Part shown: one piece after another, positions 15,500-24,275 of the stretch
How the letters are laid out: every line of letters begins with the position of its first letter
How positions within the stretch are numbered: the stretch's first letter is position 1
Source of the DNA: a virus
Reading direction: 5' to 3' (one strand)
DNA: 24,325 nucleotides
Virus record (IMG/VR): IMGVR_UViG_3300040809_000169
Span: 1-24,325 of that record
The notes under the pieces: generated by a model
Databases searched by the model: none
What the model was told of the DNA's origin: nothing
Seen by the model: the letters and a program-made list of their open reading frames with translations, nothing else
Program-made: the position numbers and the translations under genes

Positions 15500-15714
15500 G
15501 TATCAGGATCGTTTATTAGCGTCTTTAGCTTTTCCAGATATACAATAGCATCCCATAATTCTTCTTGGGCGTCTGTAATCCAATCCTTGGTAGGTTTGGT
15601 AGCATCCTCCATTGTATCACCATACGTTAGAAATCCAGCGTTGGCTCTAATGTTAGCGCGTTCAATGATTGATGCTACCAATTTATCTTCAGTGAGTTTA
15701 AATTCTTTACTCAT
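15496..15714 (-). CDS. Small MazG-like / all-alpha NTP-pyrophosphatase-like protein
   Basis: A 72-residue protein started at ATG 15714 (MSKEFKLTED); CGGAG lies 5 nt upstream. The open frame 21 nt longer is less likely. Residues about 30-70 read LTYGDTMEDATKPTKDWITDAQEELWDAIVYLEKLK. The EELWDA helix with a following helix resembles the metal-binding EExxD helices of short phage MazG-like proteins, which may remove abnormal or signalling nucleotides. It lacks a full second motif, so catalysis is uncertain. It is the last gene of the SSB-nuclease operon; its ATG overlaps the stop of the nuclease gene at 15714. Confidence 0.55.
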   Translation of the reverse strand: MSKEFKLTEDKLVASIIERANIRANAGFLTYGDTMEDATKPTKDWITDAQEELWDAIVYLEKLKTLINDPDT

Positions 15715-16604
15715 CAGAACTCCGTATTGTTCCAATATGAACAGAACTTATTGACTGCACAATAGTGAGCGCAACGTGTATCTTCACCTTTACGCAACAC
15801 AATCAAACAACCTTTACCTTCAGTCATATTGTTGTCTTTTAGATATTGTTTTGCTTCTTCAAGTGTAGGCAGCAAGCGTAATGCAGACTTCCTACCGTCT
15901 TTCATAATAGCATACTGATCTTCTTTACGCCAACGTTCTTCAGGACTACACACAGGTGGTTCTTCCTGTTGCTCTGCTTGTTGGTGTAATGCAATACGTT
16001 CTTGTATATAAGCGTCTTGTTCTTCAGGTGTCCAACGCTTGATCGGTATCATTACGCTTTGTTGTTTAGGGTAGTTATCAGAAGTCATAGATTTTAGTTT
16101 AGACCAATCACGCAATATAGCCATAATAGATAATGACTTTACTTTTATTGGTGGTTTATCTTTACTGTTTCTAATTAGCCAATCTAATATATTTAATTGA
16201 CATTCCCATTCTGATTTACCTTTTGTCAAAGCGTCCATAGCAGACCAAGCAGATGTAACCTTAAAGTCAATTAGCCTACCGTCTTTAGATAGATAGTCAA
16301 ATGTACCTGATAGTGTCCAACCGTTAGTTATCTCGTTGTTCACAAATATTCTTGTTTCGGTAACATCATCAGTATCTTCAGACGCACGTTCAATAACGTG
16401 ATGTACTGATTGACCAAGCAAAGACCAGATACGATCCGATACATCTTCCTCTAATACTTCATAGAACCGTTGTTCAAGAGCGCGTATTCTTGGTGGTTTA
16501 AGAAGTCTTGTAGCAGATATATCACTGCCTTCAGAGTCATAAGGATCATTAGCTACTGCGCGTACAATAGCGTCAGGTAAATTTTGTTTGTTTGTTAGTT
16601 CCAT
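15714..16604 (-). CDS. PD-(D/E)XK exonuclease, Cas4/RecB-like, with four-cysteine set
   Basis: A 296-residue protein. Nuclease core: GQSVHH (G64, H68), LSGTFDY (D103), LIDFKVTSAW (D113, K115) and a helix with Q136. This is the H-D-(D)xK-Q order of Cas4/RecB/AddB-type PD-(D/E)XK nucleases. Cys219 (PPVCSPEERW) and C-terminal Cys278, Cys282 and Cys288 resemble the one-plus-three cysteine pattern that holds a 4Fe-4S cluster in Cas4 and AddB, although here the first Cys follows the core instead of preceding it. It likely degrades or resects DNA ends in replication or recombination with the SSB encoded just upstream. GGGAGAGGGAG before 16604 supports the start. Confidence 0.8.
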   Translation of the reverse strand: MELTNKQNLPDAIVRAVANDPYDSEGSDISATRLLKPPRIRALEQRFYEVLEEDVSDRIWSLLGQSVHHVIERASEDTDDVTETRIFVNNEITNGWTLSGTFDYLSKDGRLIDFKVTSAWSAMDALTKGKSEWECQLNILDWLIRNSKDKPPIKVKSLSIMAILRDWSKLKSMTSDNYPKQQSVMIPIKRWTPEEQDAYIQERIALHQQAEQQEEPPVCSPEERWRKEDQYAIMKDGRKSALRLLPTLEEAKQYLKDNNMTEGKGCLIVLRKGEDTRCAHYCAVNKFCSYWNNTEF

Positions 16605-16618
16605 ACTCCCTCTCCCTA

Positions 16619-17233
16619 TTAAAATGGTACACGATCTTCATCAGTAAAGTCAGGTAAGTCAGAACCATTGTTACTATCTCCAAAGTCCTGTGATCCTGAT
16701 AGTTCTTTACAACGTAAGATGATATTCCTAATACCTTCTGATAGTTGATTGAACGCATCACGGTCGCCTTTTTGATAATCCTCAACAGAGAACATAATGC
16801 TGTCATGGAATTGATCGTCTATCTTTTCATCTTTAGGTAATGGCATAATAGTAGCAACTCTAGGCCTACCATTCTTACCCTCCATTACATTCAGATAGCA
16901 AGAAACTCCCAATAGGTTTGTAATATCAAAACCTCTTTTCTCAGTTTCTGTAAAAGGCCTACCCCTCCAAGACGCTAGATCAGTTCCTAGATTAGACTTC
17001 TCGTGTAGCGATAGTGTATAGAATTTGCTTATGGTTAGTGTTTCTCCATTATTATTTTTGTGAGCAGGCACTTCCCATATAATCATACATTGTCTTTTGA
17101 ATGACACATTACCGTCATAATTGTTTTCCTGTGTACCAAGATCTATGACGTTTACGCACCTAGCTTTTTGTAGACCTGACGGTACTTCTGGGTAGCTAGA
17201 TTGTGTTTCGTTTGACGTTGCTATAATATTCAT
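16619..17233 (-). CDS. Single-stranded DNA-binding protein (phage type)
   Basis: A 204-residue protein. Residues about 17-135 alternate strands in an OB-fold-like way (LQKARCVNVIDLGTQ, RQCMIIWEVPAH, ISKFYTLSLHEKSNL, VSCYLNVMEGKNGRPRVATI). The C-terminus is acidic and ends SDLPDFTDEDRVPF, the SSB-type tail with a terminal Phe that recruits partner proteins. It is first in a minus operon with the PD-(D/E)XK nuclease (14-nt gap) and the MazG-like gene. AAAGGAGT is upstream of the ATG. It is transcribed divergently from the Cro-like gene, with a shared operator. It resembles phage SSB-like proteins of this size, not the bacterial Ssb; confidence is moderate. Confidence 0.65.
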   Translation of the reverse strand: MNIIATSNETQSSYPEVPSGLQKARCVNVIDLGTQENNYDGNVSFKRQCMIIWEVPAHKNNNGETLTISKFYTLSLHEKSNLGTDLASWRGRPFTETEKRGFDITNLLGVSCYLNVMEGKNGRPRVATIMPLPKDEKIDDQFHDSIMFSVEDYQKGDRDAFNQLSEGIRNIILRCKELSGSQDFGDSNNGSDLPDFTDEDRVPF

Positions 17234-17271: not shown

Positions 17272-17299
17272 ATTATGACTATTATTAACAACAAGTCAA
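17272..17299 (-). promoter_or_regulatory. Promoter for the SSB-nuclease operon
   Basis: On the minus strand TTGACT (17299-17294), a 16-nt spacer and CATAAT (17277-17272) give a good sigma70 match, followed by an AT-rich leader with AAAGGAGT before the SSB start at 17233. The -35 box is the left arm of the palindrome at 17293-17314, so a protein bound there should block it. Confidence 0.55.
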
Positions 17300-17314
17300 T
17301 AGAATAGTTGACTT
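17293..17314. promoter_or_regulatory. 22-bp palindromic operator, probably for the Cro-like repressor
   Basis: AAGTCAA (17293-17299), 8-bp centre TAGAATAG, TTGACTT (17308-17314): perfect 7-bp arms with dyad symmetry. Each arm contains a TTGACT -35 box, one facing each way. It lies 50-70 bp before a Cro-like HTH gene, as expected of an autoregulated operator. Only one such site was noticed. Confidence 0.6.
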
Positions 17315-17334
17315 TAATTAACATATTTTATAAT
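17308..17334 (+). promoter_or_regulatory. Promoter for the Cro-like gene
   Basis: TTGACT at 17308-17313 in the right arm of the palindrome, a 15-nt spacer and TATAAT at 17329-17334. The short spacer is a little outside the optimum and may make the promoter dependent on regulation. The leader then carries GAGAGGTAA before ATG 17363. Confidence 0.5.
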
Positions 17335-17362
17335 ATAGTTTATATAAAATGAGAGGTAATCA

Positions 17363-17581: not shown

Positions 17582-17763
17582 ATTATAGCACTGCTATAGC
17601 ATTGTTAAAATCTGCTATCGTTTTGCTAATGGCAAATTATAGCTCTTCAACTGCAACTGCAACTGCAACTTCATCTGCGTACAAGATCCTATACACACCT
17701 ATATCATAAAGTGGTTGACATAGGTTAATAAATCATTAGTATGTATGTTGAGGAAGGTTAAGC
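17582..17763 (+). promoter_or_regulatory. Regulatory gap between repressor and replication genes, with promoter
   Basis: A 182-nt gap. TATAGC-ACT-GCTATA at 17584-17598 is a perfect inverted repeat just after the repressor stop. TTTGC-TAATG-GCAAA at 17622-17636 is a second hairpin. Neither has a T-tract, so termination would be weak. CAACTG is repeated three times, with a fourth copy ending CAACTT, at 17648-17671. A consensus TTGACA at 17715-17720, 16-nt spacer and TAGTAT at 17737-17742 form a likely promoter for the DUF1376 gene and the replication operon, followed by GAGGAAGG before ATG 17764. Confidence 0.5.
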
Positions 17764-18135
17764 ATGAGAAAAAGATATAATGATGAACAGTCACCTGCGT
17801 TCCAGTTTTATGCAAATGATTGGATCAGCGATACAAATAGACTTAATATGAGTTTAGAAGAACAAGGCATATACATATTATTGTATTGTCATTGTTGGCG
17901 TGTCTATAAACTTACATTTGATTTCAATACACTAGCCAAGATATGTAATACTAGGCCAAACGTTATGAAAAAAGCGTGGCGTAATATGGAGCATTTGTTT
18001 ATTGTAGAAGATAATTATATCTACTGCTTACAGGCAGAAGAAGAACGCGATAGACAAACGCAGAATAGAATAAAAAAGCAACAGGCAGGAAAAAAAGGCG
18101 CAGAGGTAAGGTGGGGAGATGTACGACAAGACTAA
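17764..18135 (+). CDS. DUF1376 (YdaU-like) replication-associated protein
   Basis: A 123-residue protein. Residues 8-50 (QSPAFQFYANDWISDTNRLNMSLEEQGIYILLY) are the hallmark of DUF1376: a P-x-F-x-F-Y-x-x-D-W segment, then an E-x-G-x-Y-x-x-L helix. The remainder (CNTRPNVMKKAWRNMEHLF) looks like a winged-helix half and ends with a Gln/Lys-rich linker. DUF1376 proteins usually sit in phage replication modules and resemble the N-terminal DNA-binding part of primosomal or initiator proteins. Here it overlaps the primase gene by 17 nt, so the pair may form a split initiator-primase. The exact biochemical role is not established. Confidence 0.85.
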   Translation: MRKRYNDEQSPAFQFYANDWISDTNRLNMSLEEQGIYILLYCHCWRVYKLTFDFNTLAKICNTRPNVMKKAWRNMEHLFIVEDNYIYCLQAEEERDRQTQNRIKKQQAGKKGAEVRWGDVRQD

Positions 18136-18973
18136 ACAATATGCACGTTTTTTAAATAGCTTTGGTACGCACCATAGTTTTCAGACTTTTGGTGATAAAG
18201 GCCTGAACAAAATGCTAATCAAACAGTTTCATGGAACTATTGAACAGTATTTAGATCAGCTTTGGTCATTGAATGAACGTGGCGCAGGTGTATTTTTTAC
18301 CGTCAATCAAACTGATTTGCATGGTAGGACTGCAAACAACATCAAATCAATCCGTTCAGTATTTATTGATTTGGACGGAGCGCCATTACCTAGCAAATTT
18401 GAATTGCAACCTAATTTGATTGTTAATACATCACCTGATAAATACCATTGTTATTGGTTGGTTGATGATATGCCGTTAGAAAGTTTTAATTTATATCAAG
18501 AAGCATTAGCTTTGAAATTCAATAGTGATCCTGTTGTAAAAGACTTGCCAAGAGTAATGAGAGTTGCAGGTTTTTATCACAACAAACATAAGCCATATCC
18601 TATTGAAATCATTGAAGAATATAACACAAACAAACCGTATAAAACCAGTGAAATTCGTGATAAACTAAAACTTGAAAGACCAAAAAGTAAAATGATTGTT
18701 GGCAGAATGTTGCCAAGAACTACAACTTACAAGCGCCCTAGTATTATGCACGGTGCGCCTAAAGGGAATAGACACGAAACATTAATCAGAATGTTAATAT
18801 CAATGAGATTGCGTGGTGAAACTTTAGAGTATGCAAAGAATGAAGCTATGGCATTTGCAAACGCTTGTAATCCACCTGAAAGCATGAGAGAAGTCATGTT
18901 TCAACTAAATGATATATGGAGAAGATATGAACCTACGACAATACCAACTAAAGGCAATGTATCAAGTCGTTGA
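18119..18973 (+). CDS. RepB-like archaeo-eukaryotic-type DNA primase with PriCT-like tail
   Basis: A 284-residue protein. The catalytic D-x-D is FIDLDG (D84, D86). A strand with NTSPDKYHCYW (H110) supplies the s-x-H element, and RVMRVAGFYHNKHKPYP (R148) follows. This matches the RepB-type branch of archaeo-eukaryotic primases. Residues about 215-270 (GNRHETLIRMLISMRLRGETLEYAKNEA, NPPESMREVMFQ) resemble the PriCT-1 helical domain found after such primases. It should make primers, possibly DNA primers, at the phage origin, replacing the TOPRIM primase-helicase of T7. AAGGTGGGG precedes ATG 18119. It overlaps the next helicase gene by 47 nt. Confidence 0.8.
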   Translation: MYDKTKQYARFLNSFGTHHSFQTFGDKGLNKMLIKQFHGTIEQYLDQLWSLNERGAGVFFTVNQTDLHGRTANNIKSIRSVFIDLDGAPLPSKFELQPNLIVNTSPDKYHCYWLVDDMPLESFNLYQEALALKFNSDPVVKDLPRVMRVAGFYHNKHKPYPIEIIEEYNTNKPYKTSEIRDKLKLERPKSKMIVGRMLPRTTTYKRPSIMHGAPKGNRHETLIRMLISMRLRGETLEYAKNEAMAFANACNPPESMREVMFQLNDIWRRYEPTTIPTKGNVSSR

Positions 18974-20408
18974 TACTAGTTATCGCAATAAAAAAATATT
19001 ATTAGTAGCCCCAACAGGTAGTGGTAAGACTGTTATGGCTAGTGCGTTGATAGAATCTGCTTTAGAAAAGGGGCATAAGTGTTTATTTGTAGCGCATAGA
19101 CGCGAACTTATTATGCAATGCAGCAAAAAATTATCAGACTTTAACATTGAACACGGTGTCATAATGTCAGGTAAATCCCCTAACCCAAAAGCAAGAACGC
19201 AAATAGCAAGCATACAAACATTTGCTATAAGAAGTAAAAAAGATGATTTTAATAAACCAGACGCGTCATTGGTTATTATTGATGAAGCGCATAGAAGCGC
19301 AAGCCAATCATTTAAAGATCTAATTGAACACTATCCTAAAGCAATAATACTTGGACTTACTGCAACTCCGTGTAGATCAGACGGCAAGGGATTGGGTGGT
19401 ATCTATGACGATCTTGTTGAATGTAGTAGTATAAAAGAACTAACTGAACTTGGTTATTTAGTGCCTAGTAAAATTATTGCCCCAACTATTCCAGATCTAA
19501 AACATCTCAAGATCATGCAAGGGGATTATGAAAAGCGTGGACTAAATAAAACTATGAATACTCCTAAACTTGTAGGGGATTTAGTTACGCATTGGTTAAG
19601 GCATGCTCGCAATAGACCAACTGTTGTGTTTGCTGTTTCTATTGCGCATAGTAGATACATAGCAAAAATGTTTAATGACAATGGTATACCTTGTGGCCAC
19701 ATTGATGGTGAAATGGAAGAATACGAAAGAGAAAGAATACTGCACGATCTCAAGGTTGGCTCTATAAAAGTTATATCAAATTGCCAAGTGCTTACTGAAG
19801 GTTGGGATATGCCTAAAGTATCTTGCGTTATATTAGCTAGACCTACTAAATCTTATGGTATGTATTTACAAATGGTTGGTAGATCATTAAGACCTGCAGA
19901 AGATAAAGAAGATACATTAATCCTAGATCACGCAGGTTGTGTTTATGAACATGGTTTTCCTGATGAAACACCTGAATGGAAACTTACAGAAGATAAATTA
20001 ACGCGTGAAAGTGCGCCAAAAAATAAGCCAACAGAAAAACAACCTTTTACTTGTGTGAAATGTGATACTGTTTATCAACCAAGCAGACTTAATAGAGAAT
20101 GTCCTAATTGTCATTATGTTTTGAATGAGGTTGATAAAAAAGTTTTAATTAAACAAGGCAGACTTGTTGAGATAGAGAAAGATATTGTAAAATTAGATAA
20201 TAAAAAAGATTGGTATGCGCAACTGCTGTATTTTGCAAAACAAAAAGGTTACAAAGAAGGTTGGGCAAGTTATACTTTTAAGAAGAAGTTTGGTCATTGG
20301 CCACATTCTAAACAAGTATTCCCTAAACCAATAGGCAAAGAGGTTGAGGGGTATATTAAACATTTGCAAATTAAAAATATCAAAGGGGGTAACAATGCAA
20401 GATATTAA
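18927..20408 (+). CDS. SF2 DEAD/DEAH-box helicase with C-terminal zinc ribbon
   Basis: A 493-residue protein when started at ATG 18927, preceded by GGAGAAG; an 18909 start is possible but lacks a ribosome site. Motifs: Walker A APTGSGKT (28-35), motif II DEAH (119-122), motif III TAT (145-147), motif V LTEGWDMP (about 289-296) and motif VI QMVGRSLRP (315-323). Two Cys pairs at 376/379 and 392/395 (CVKC, CPNC) form a zinc ribbon. The closest type is the UvrB/RecG-like phage SF2 helicase (as in ResIII domain proteins), not the hexameric gp4. It likely unwinds DNA at forks or recombination intermediates together with the neighbouring primase. Confidence 0.9.
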   Translation: MNLRQYQLKAMYQVVDTSYRNKKILLVAPTGSGKTVMASALIESALEKGHKCLFVAHRRELIMQCSKKLSDFNIEHGVIMSGKSPNPKARTQIASIQTFAIRSKKDDFNKPDASLVIIDEAHRSASQSFKDLIEHYPKAIILGLTATPCRSDGKGLGGIYDDLVECSSIKELTELGYLVPSKIIAPTIPDLKHLKIMQGDYEKRGLNKTMNTPKLVGDLVTHWLRHARNRPTVVFAVSIAHSRYIAKMFNDNGIPCGHIDGEMEEYERERILHDLKVGSIKVISNCQVLTEGWDMPKVSCVILARPTKSYGMYLQMVGRSLRPAEDKEDTLILDHAGCVYEHGFPDETPEWKLTEDKLTRESAPKNKPTEKQPFTCVKCDTVYQPSRLNRECPNCHYVLNEVDKKVLIKQGRLVEIEKDIVKLDNKKDWYAQLLYFAKQKGYKEGWASYTFKKKFGHWPHSKQVFPKPIGKEVEGYIKHLQIKNIKGGNNARY

Positions 20409-20733
20409 TAAAGAAAATCAAATACATAAGTTGCGTGAGATCGGAACTAAACACGCAGAAGCCAAGCGAAAGTTAGCAATTCTTGAACACGGTAGGCAAA
20501 TACTTCTAGCAGATTTAATGAAAGAATATTTGTTACAGGGGGAGAAAACTGTTGCAGGCCAAGACCGTGAAGCTAGGGCAGACGATCGCTACAAAAATCA
20601 TATTGAAGCGCTTGGTTTTGCCATAGAAGAAGAACTGAAATGGGCATGGGAAAAGCGCATTGTTGAAATAAACTTTGAGAAATGGAAAACCGATATGATT
20701 AATAATACTATGGAGAGGAAACATTATGCCTAA
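20395..20733 (+). CDS. Coiled-coil protein between helicase and Ref-like nuclease
   Basis: A 112-residue protein started at ATG 20395, which has AAGGGGGT 5 nt upstream. The frame is open back to 20344, but that part overlaps the helicase. It is highly charged, with predicted helices at about residues 5-45 (KLREIGTKHAEAKRKLAILEHGRQ) and about 68-100 (a Trp-rich helix, WAWEKRIVEINFEKWK). No cysteine or known motif is seen. It overlaps the helicase gene by 14 nt and the nuclease gene by 8 nt, so it is translated as part of the replication operon. It may be a loader or partner protein; this is inference. Confidence 0.6.
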   Translation: MQDINKENQIHKLREIGTKHAEAKRKLAILEHGRQILLADLMKEYLLQGEKTVAGQDREARADDRYKNHIEALGFAIEEELKWAWEKRIVEINFEKWKTDMINNTMERKHYA

Positions 20734-21714: not shown

Positions 21715-22248
21715 TTATAGTATTTTTCCTAATTCCATTTCAAATACTAATTTTAAATCTTGATACGTTGTTACTTCTTTACCTCCAACGTGCCAATCTC
21801 TTATTCTTTGTATATCTAAACCTTGATCGCCTAGATATGCTTTGCCATTTTTCCAATTATAGATAGTGAATATCCTACCGTCCGAAAATTTACCGTACCA
21901 ATTAACGTCCGTTTTGCCGTCATCACTACCTTTATAGGCTTGAATATTATGCTTGTTCATTATTTGCATAACTTCATCATATCCAATTTTCAACGTTCCT
22001 TGTAAACAAGTACCCCAGCTATCTTCAGGTCGCGCTTGTAGTAGTTGTTTAAGATCCTCATAATAATCGGACTGTAAATTCATATCGTATATATCATTAA
22101 AGTGTTTGGTGTATTTCCTAACCACTCTAACAAATTCAGTCGGATCATATTTCTCGTACTGTTTTTGTAATGCCCACATTAAATGGACTATCTTTTCAGC
22201 TTCATCTCTAACTTCATTAAAGCTATTTGGATTACTAAAGTCTAACAT
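21715..22248 (-). CDS. 177-residue early protein, unknown
   Basis: The N-terminal half (residues 1-75) is helical and charged (EVRDEAEKIVHLMWALQKQYEKYDP, VRVVRKYTKHFNDIYDM). The C-terminal half (about 88-177) is an alpha/beta domain with VNWYGKFSDGRIFTIYNWKNGKAY and IRDWHVGGKE, rich in Trp, Gly and Asp. The second half, with its FSDGR-FTIYNWK core, looks like a domain found alone in small marine phage proteins; I cannot name it. AAGGGAGT precedes the ATG. No catalytic motif or membrane segment is visible. It is the largest gene of the minus operon. Confidence 0.6.
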   Translation of the reverse strand: MLDFSNPNSFNEVRDEAEKIVHLMWALQKQYEKYDPTEFVRVVRKYTKHFNDIYDMNLQSDYYEDLKQLLQARPEDSWGTCLQGTLKIGYDEVMQIMNKHNIQAYKGSDDGKTDVNWYGKFSDGRIFTIYNWKNGKAYLGDQGLDIQRIRDWHVGGKEVTTYQDLKLVFEMELGKIL

Positions 22249-22358
22249 TGTTTCTACTCCCTTTTGTTAATCTATGTTAATACTATTCTTTATTTACTAA
22301 ATAATCAACCTCTAATTAAATTTGCGCCCTATTATGTTAAGGCGCAAGGTATTAACCA
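22249..22358 (-). other. Intergenic hairpin and possible internal promoter in the minus operon
   Basis: TTGCGCC (22322-22328) and GGCGCAA (22341-22347) form a perfect 7-bp stem with a 12-nt loop. On minus it is followed by ATTTAATTAG, not a T-tract, so it is at best a weak terminator and may be a processing or stability hairpin. Downstream on minus, TTGATT, 17 nt and TAGTAT resemble a weak promoter that could restart transcription toward the 177-residue gene. Confidence 0.35.
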
Positions 22359-23444: not shown

Positions 23445-23496
23445 TTTACTTCCCTTTATACTGTTAGTAATACATTAACTTACGTTAACAATAACA

Positions 23497-23526
23497 CTTA
23501 TACTATAAGTAATAATAGTATGTCAA
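23497..23526 (-). promoter_or_regulatory. Strong sigma70 promoter of the minus-strand small-gene operon
   Basis: On the minus strand a consensus TTGACA (23526-23521), an 18-nt spacer and TATAAG (23502-23497). A 15-bp palindrome, ACTTATA-C-TATAAGT (23496-23510), covers the -10 region and may be a repressor site. A second dyad, TTAAC-TTAC-GTTAA (23475-23488), lies in the leader. The first gene begins at 23444. Confidence 0.65.
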
Positions 23527-24154: not shown

Positions 24155-24223
24155 CCCCACCCCCCAAAGCCGTCGCCGTTGTATATTACTATGGATCTCT
24201 CCGTACAGCGGTGGGGGTTTTTT
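24155..24223 (+). terminator. Rho-independent terminator after terS
   Basis: CCGTTGTA (24176-24183) pairs with TACAGCGG (24204-24211), with one G-U pair, and the C-run at 24160-24165 can pair with GGGGG at 24213-24217. TTTTTT (24218-24223) follows directly. This is a convincing plus-strand terminator for the transcript through the small terminase gene, though the interior loop is large. Confidence 0.6.
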
Positions 24224-24246
24224 GATATTAACATTTGTTAACGCTA

Positions 24247-24275
24247 TTGACATGGGTATTGTCTTAGGTTAAGGT
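24247..24275 (+). promoter_or_regulatory. Possible promoter for the gene at the right edge
   Basis: A consensus TTGACA at 24247-24252 follows the terminator. The best -10 at 17 nt is TAAGGT (24270-24275), a poor match. The AAGG at 24271-24274 may instead be the ribosome site for ATG 24282, so only the -35 box is convincing. Confidence 0.3.

Follow-up and report, generated by a model that had tools for sequence, protein, structure and literature searches.

A single Cro protein of the P22 type most probably acts as a dimer on the palindrome TTRAC-N4-GTYAA and represses host-polymerase promoters throughout the genome of a marine phage and its relatives. Binding, repression and the sequence of events during infection we infer, and the probability of this reading is put at about 80%. 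The window analyzed is the first 24,325 nucleotides of IMG/VR record IMGVR_UViG_3300040809_000169. Two of its proteins were used to search IMG/VR, yielding 65 and 80 loci and one isolate, Pelagibacter phage EXVC032P Baldr; the window is from an uncultured marine phage related to this SAR11 phage.

The Cro-type gene and its genomic setting

A Cro-like helix-turn-helix (HTH) gene had been described beside the promoters, and the search bore this out, with a match to PF14549 (P22_Cro) of 44.7 bits against a cut-off of 30.2. One such gene per record, above the curated cut-off, was found in all 43 of the longer relatives searched, and the residues ISHPAVSKW were identical in all of the relatives' proteins read. 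Structure prediction returned a best model that was all-helical (pLDDT 86; about 53 for the other four), and its best PDB fold match was P22 Cro, 1rzs (probability 0.98, with a weak E = 0.2 and TM 0.48-0.56); by sequence, the match to 1rzs was E = 0.02. Kelch-type PDB sequence matches of the same protein were set aside as artefacts arising from repeated weak domains. When the same switch was sought in bacterial genomes, one distant match was returned, in Algicola (43% over 49 residues), without prophage evidence. RNA structure 3' of the HTH gene was not notable (z = -0.9).

The head of the leftward operon had been read as an SSB gene. It fits best to NCBIfam NF046043, 'phage replication initiation protein, NGO0469 family' (E = 2e-53), and to no named SSB family. 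HTH and NGO0469-family genes were found together at 78 of 79 loci. The corresponding frame of Baldr (OQ414636.1, 31095-31691; locus L107) is intact but unannotated, with 59.5% identity to the window protein; in the public record its small neighbor (31811-32023) is labelled a PD-(D/E)XK nuclease and the Cro-like gene (32020-32235) is labelled hypothetical.

Its structural genes had also been called T7-like. A T7-type RNA polymerase (PF00940) was absent from 10 long relatives and from Baldr in a search that detected those of HTVC011P and HTVC019P, and host polymerase is therefore presumably used. Among 16 long relatives, with positive controls detected, there was no integrase of the tyrosine type (PF00589) and no HTH_3 (CI-type, PF01381) repressor; in four of the 16 the two ends overlap by 99-127 bp, which is what a complete assembly should show. 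Separately, record IMGVR_UViG_3300037963_001078 (G003; loci L108-L110) is 60.6 kb long, against 36-38 kb in its relatives, and is not a simple dimer; two stretches in it, about 37 kb apart, are 77% alike, and it is perhaps a chimera of two related phages.

A palindrome with fixed spacing at phage promoters

Non-redundant divergent regions (n = 31) were selected solely for the presence of two facing -35 boxes. GTYAA stood exactly 9 nt past the start of the rightward TTGAC in 27 of them, and at offsets 5-8 and 10-13 it did not occur. Three of the four exceptions belong to the window's clade, which has ATTAA at this place, and the fourth (L220) has CTTAA. Because GTYAA is fixed at this distance, the conserved unit is, on sequence grounds, TTRAC-N4-GTYAA, a candidate operator whose half-sites are opposite in orientation to those of the dyad discussed below.

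Exact matches to the motif numbered 154 across 43 records, and a reversed control pattern gave 4; in 41 contigs and the window 152 matches fell at N4, while the remaining spacings between 0 and 12 yielded 1-20 apiece, these counts being taken across related genomes whose records are not independent. The window holds three exact matches, where 0.22 are expected from shuffles. Pelagiphages that lack a PF14549 gene hold 0-1 copies. No report of an operator of the form TTRAC-N4-GTYAA was found in the open-access literature.

By position, 56 exact sites lie between the divergent genes, 29 follow the HTH gene on its 3' side (most of them on the promoter of the replication arm), 26 lie beside terS and 23 at the packaging/structural arm; 18 are unclassed, and by their flanks some of these belong to the terS or structural classes. 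The half-site TTGAC occurs in 34/56 divergent and 22/29 replication sites, but in 0/26 terS and 0/23 structural sites, where both halves are the plain palindrome. TTGAC stands in for TTAAC mainly where the half-site doubles as a -35 box. Sites of the terS class lie just downstream of the -10 box of a leftward promoter.

Divergent promoters and the dyad between them

Sigma-70-type promoters probably lie back to back between the two divergent genes, and both, including the repressor's own, are likely controlled by the Cro-type protein. To this extent the preliminary description, in which a Cro-like protein shuts both promoters and its own gene, is retained; the route it gave, through a 22-bp dyad, is not. 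The -10 boxes that it listed are present, CATAAT at 16 nt on the minus strand and TATAAT at 15 nt on the plus strand, but the rightward box is more likely TAATAT (17331-17336), at the canonical spacing of 17 nt. TAnnnT was found at 17 nt in 18/36 regions of the related set, against 2/36 at 15 nt, and the consensus promoter scan picks the 17-nt version.

The dyad AAGTCAA-8-TTGACTT (AAGTCAATAGAATAGTTGACTT) is indeed present at 17293-17314, with TTGACT outward on both strands. As a bare palindrome above chance it was dropped, for a shuffled A+T-rich gap gives similar dyads: the intergenic region has three 7-bp dyads with loops of 3-20, the shuffle mean is 0.96, and at least one occurs in 48% of shuffles. 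What exceeds chance is that the two -35 boxes are kept in relatives, and not the palindrome as such. The gap between the boxes in the 31 regions was 8 bp (13 regions), 5 bp (8), 9 bp (4), 7 bp (4), 10 bp (1) or 6 bp (1). Conservation of the dyad in relatives, proposed earlier as a check, therefore holds for the boxes and fails for the distance between them. The dyad was rejected as an operator on account of this variation, since a rigid dimer should not tolerate gaps of 5-10 bp, and the claim that it forms a single dimer operator is set aside in favor of TTRAC-N4-GTYAA, of which the spacing is fixed.

That one Cro dimer on these 22 bp shuts both promoters, with no other operators, would agree with the existence of the dyad and its two TTGACT boxes, with 8 bp being the commonest gap, and with the degenerate state of the local N4 operators in the window's clade. 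We consider it very improbable, given the range of gaps in relatives, a half-site order opposite to that of the conserved palindrome, and a conserved GTTAA 9 bp from the -35 box and perfect sites elsewhere that it leaves unexplained. Within the window's clade a minimal reading of this single place is less strongly excluded, because the local sites are degenerate there; perfect sites stand elsewhere, at 17715, 23475 and 24228. If instead the Cro dimer binds TTRAC-N4-GTYAA, the dyad would be a by-product of back-to-back -35 boxes, each of which supplies an operator, or what is left of one, with its inner half.

A minimal switch without a multi-operator layout had been proposed. The relatives contradict this: the majority carry two or three operators within this same intergenic region, with further copies at the replication arm, the terS-side leftward arm and the terminase/structural arm. 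Three layouts were distinguished: three operators at a pitch of 22-23 bp (G022, G024, G026, G030, G031, G035 and others); two operators 31-36 bp apart (G010, G013, G019, G021); and that of the window's clade, with TTGAC-N4-ATTAA on the right and, on the left, a site broken by N5 or, in G006/G007, TTAAC-N4-ATTAA. The right half of the site at 17308 is GTTAA in nearly all relatives outside this clade, and the left site is TTAAC-N4-GTCAA in relatives such as L036 and L046-L053. Control of the divergent pair may be weak in the window and its clade, because the operators there are degenerate (the ATTAA half-site at 17308; N5 on the left).

Two further features of these regions were observed. At L036, L038, L043, L045-L053 and related loci, a gene beginning MASV... 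separates the HTH gene from the operators; the rightward -10 box, TATAGA, sits only 6-8 bp before the ATG of this gene, and this points to a leaderless message. At L044, L062, L064 and L066 the first gene is set off from the rightward promoter by an insert of about 100 bp whose long ends are inverted (for example GAGGTAGTAAGGTTAGG...CCTAAACATCCCTTATTACCTC); these inserts differ among close relatives and may be small mobile hairpin elements or structured leaders.

Sites elsewhere in the window

Sites were scored with a PWM trained on sites from outside both the window's clade and the divergent region. The strongest in the window were, in order, those at 23475, 17715, 24228 and 22267 (Table 1).

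Table 1. Genes, promoters and candidate operators in the window (strand '.' for symmetric sites).
Feature	Position	Strand	Evidence and remarks
Exonuclease, gene 2 of leftward operon	15714..16604	-	phrog_2139, E = 8e-49
NGO0469-family phage replication initiation protein, head of leftward operon	16619..17233	-	NF046043, 180 bits
Leftward promoter	17272..17299	-	-35 TTGACT, 16 nt, -10 CATAAT; consensus scan
Degenerate left operator on leftward -35	17285..17299	.	TTAAC-N5-GTCAA; doubtful in window; PWM gives no score
Dyad of the preliminary description	17293..17314	.	everted -35 pair GTCAA-N8-TTGAC, probably not itself an operator; gap 5-10 bp across relatives
Candidate operator on rightward -35	17308..17321	.	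TTGAC-TTTA-ATTAA, one mismatch; PWM 9.4, rank 6 in window
Rightward promoter	17308..17336	+	-35 TTGACT, 17 nt, -10 TAATAT; consensus scan and related set
P22-Cro-type putative repressor, 72 aa	17363..17581	+	PF14549; recognition-helix region ISHPAVSKW
Replication-arm promoter	17715..17742	+	TTGACA-16-TAGTAT; perfect candidate operator TTGAC-ATAG-GTTAA (17715-17728) on -35; PWM 19.0
Replication arm: DUF1376/primosomal protein, RepB-type primase, helicase, downstream gene	17764..20733	+	
Candidate operator	22267..22280	.	TTAAT-CTAT-GTTAA; PWM 15.6, rank 4; 19 bp upstream of leftward gene 21715-22248
Perfect candidate operator	23475..23488	.	TTAAC-TTAC-GTTAA; just downstream of leftward-arm -10; PWM 19.1; class in 26 records
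Perfect candidate operator	24228..24241	.	TTAAC-ATTT-GTTAA; upstream of packaging/structural arm; PWM 17.9; class in 23 records
Second, weaker candidate site	24259..24272	.	TTGTC-TTAG-GTTAA; 31 bp beyond 24228 site; PWM 10.0

Of 42 records, counting the window, 24 had exact sites of the replication-arm class. Like the site at 22267, a one-mismatch site stands just before a leftward gene in G001 and G003-G005. The leftward promoter at the 23475 site is on the minus strand (-10 TATAAG, 23497-23502; -35 TTGACA, 23521-23526), and terS starts 87 bp to the right of the site. One-mismatch companions of the structural-arm site were also seen in relatives: in G019 the companion follows after 31 bp, in G021 and G023 after 19 bp. 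In G001, where gene names were read from the sequences, the structural arm runs near-continuously from the operator through a nuclease-like gene, terL, portal, capsid and tail.

A conserved stretch resembling TCCGYACAGCGGTGGGnnTTTTTT occurs just before the structural-arm operator, at 24195-24225 in the window and at the matching place in relatives; it may represent a terminator or a site of packaging (cos/pac). Several contigs, and the Baldr record too, start no more than about 250 bp from the same operator. In Baldr (OQ414636.1) exact copies of the motif stand at 233, 31765, 32459 and 38928.

Proposed mechanism and the identity of the binder

The 72-residue protein, as a dimer, would bind the 14-bp inverted repeat TTRAC-N4-GTYAA. 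The sites lie on the -35 box, spacer or start point of sigma-70-type promoters, so that a bound dimer would block host RNA polymerase. In most relatives the two or three operators between the divergent genes would cover both promoters, giving autoregulation together with shut-off of the leftward replication/recombination operon, and through the further operators the same protein would act on the replication arm, the second leftward arm and the terminase/structural arm.

Because the HTH and NGO0469-family genes travel together, co-occurrence cannot single out the Cro protein as the binder, and the assignment was made from knowledge of the family and from the operator frame. A binder other than Cro, either the NGO0469-family replication protein, with iteron-like binding and autoregulation, or TerS at packaging sites, would accord with the 'replication initiation' match to NF046043, with the constant linkage of the NGO0469-family gene to the motif and with the two site classes that flank terS. 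It is nevertheless very improbable in our judgment. The motif was absent from four freshwater phages with NGO0469 homologues, at 33-45% identity, where specificity may differ; two of these four gave weak PF14549 matches below cut-off. A short symmetric promoter site in the operator frame of P22 suits a Cro dimer better, and sites on the replication-arm -35 box and over the leftward start point suit a repressor.

Least probable is that the sites are those of a host regulator exploited by the phage, or an extended promoter element of host polymerase: they do lie on sigma-70-type promoters, but the HTCC1062 pelagiphages HTVC010P, HTVC011P and HTVC019P, of similar G+C, hold 0-1 copies, and the terS-side leftward sites lie downstream of the -10 box, which is unexpected for a promoter element.

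Implications

If a genome-wide Cro operates in this way, it might serve to halt infection for a time, to keep out a second phage or to order expression by graded operator strength, because it would hold the early, replication and terminase/structural promoters together, a role that in P22 and lambda is split among Cro, CI and antiterminators. We suggest only tentatively that one Cro-type protein, in a phage with neither CI nor integrase, does hold all three sets of promoters as a genome-wide repressor; its effect could be either mere damping of early genes, as Cro does, or silencing of the whole phage. SAR11 phages are among the most abundant marine viruses, and little is known of their regulation. 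The analysis supplies an operator code, a candidate repressor and a testable list of promoters, the cultured isolate Baldr included. The retention of a Cro-type repressor in phages that have no CI partner for it, and the presence of its operators on the structural arm, also bear on how switches of the lambda type are assembled or disassembled.

Comparison with known systems

HTVC010P-type pelagiphages, such as Polarivirus skadi, use host polymerase, have no phage RNA polymerase and are reported to carry transcriptional regulators (PMC10504331). HTVC010P is likewise a SAR11 phage without a phage RNA polymerase but, unlike the phages studied here, gives no match to PF14549 and contains the motif only once. 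Mycobacteriophage stoperators are asymmetric sites bound by a monomeric repressor, and also stop elongation (PMC9283540); there too one phage repressor has many sites genome-wide, whereas the sites here are symmetric and at promoters.

In the telomere phages N15, PY54 and phiKO2, Cro is of the all-alpha P22/N15 class; phiKO2 has three operators between its divergent genes and PY54 a leaderless cro message, the operators of phiKO2 and N15 are 16 bp (T-A-N10-T-A), and the Cro proteins of PY54 and phiKO2 bind a single operator and are paired with CI/CB (PMC4997575, PMC4488713). The class of Cro is probably common to both, and three operators between divergent genes and a leaderless message are further parallels; the single bound operator and the CI/CB partner set PY54 and phiKO2 apart, and the 16-bp operators set phiKO2 and N15 apart. 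As for the traits of a lambdoid switch, several operators between divergent promoters (two or three) are present in most relatives and degenerate in the window's clade, and in the place of a divergent CI/c2-type repressor stands the NF046043 gene.

The Cro of P22 belongs to the same family, PF14549, as the 72-residue protein. The OR and OL operators of P22 have the frame TTAAG-N4-CTTAA, so that both systems use two 5-bp half-sites around N4, with the last base of the half-site G in P22 and C here; the pitch is 23-25 bp in P22 OR and 22-23 bp here, and in both the operators overlap divergent promoters. In contrast to P22 immC, there is no c2/CI partner, the divergent gene encodes a replication protein and no integrase was found; and where P22 has operators at OL and OR only, those described here stand also at the replication, second leftward and structural arms.
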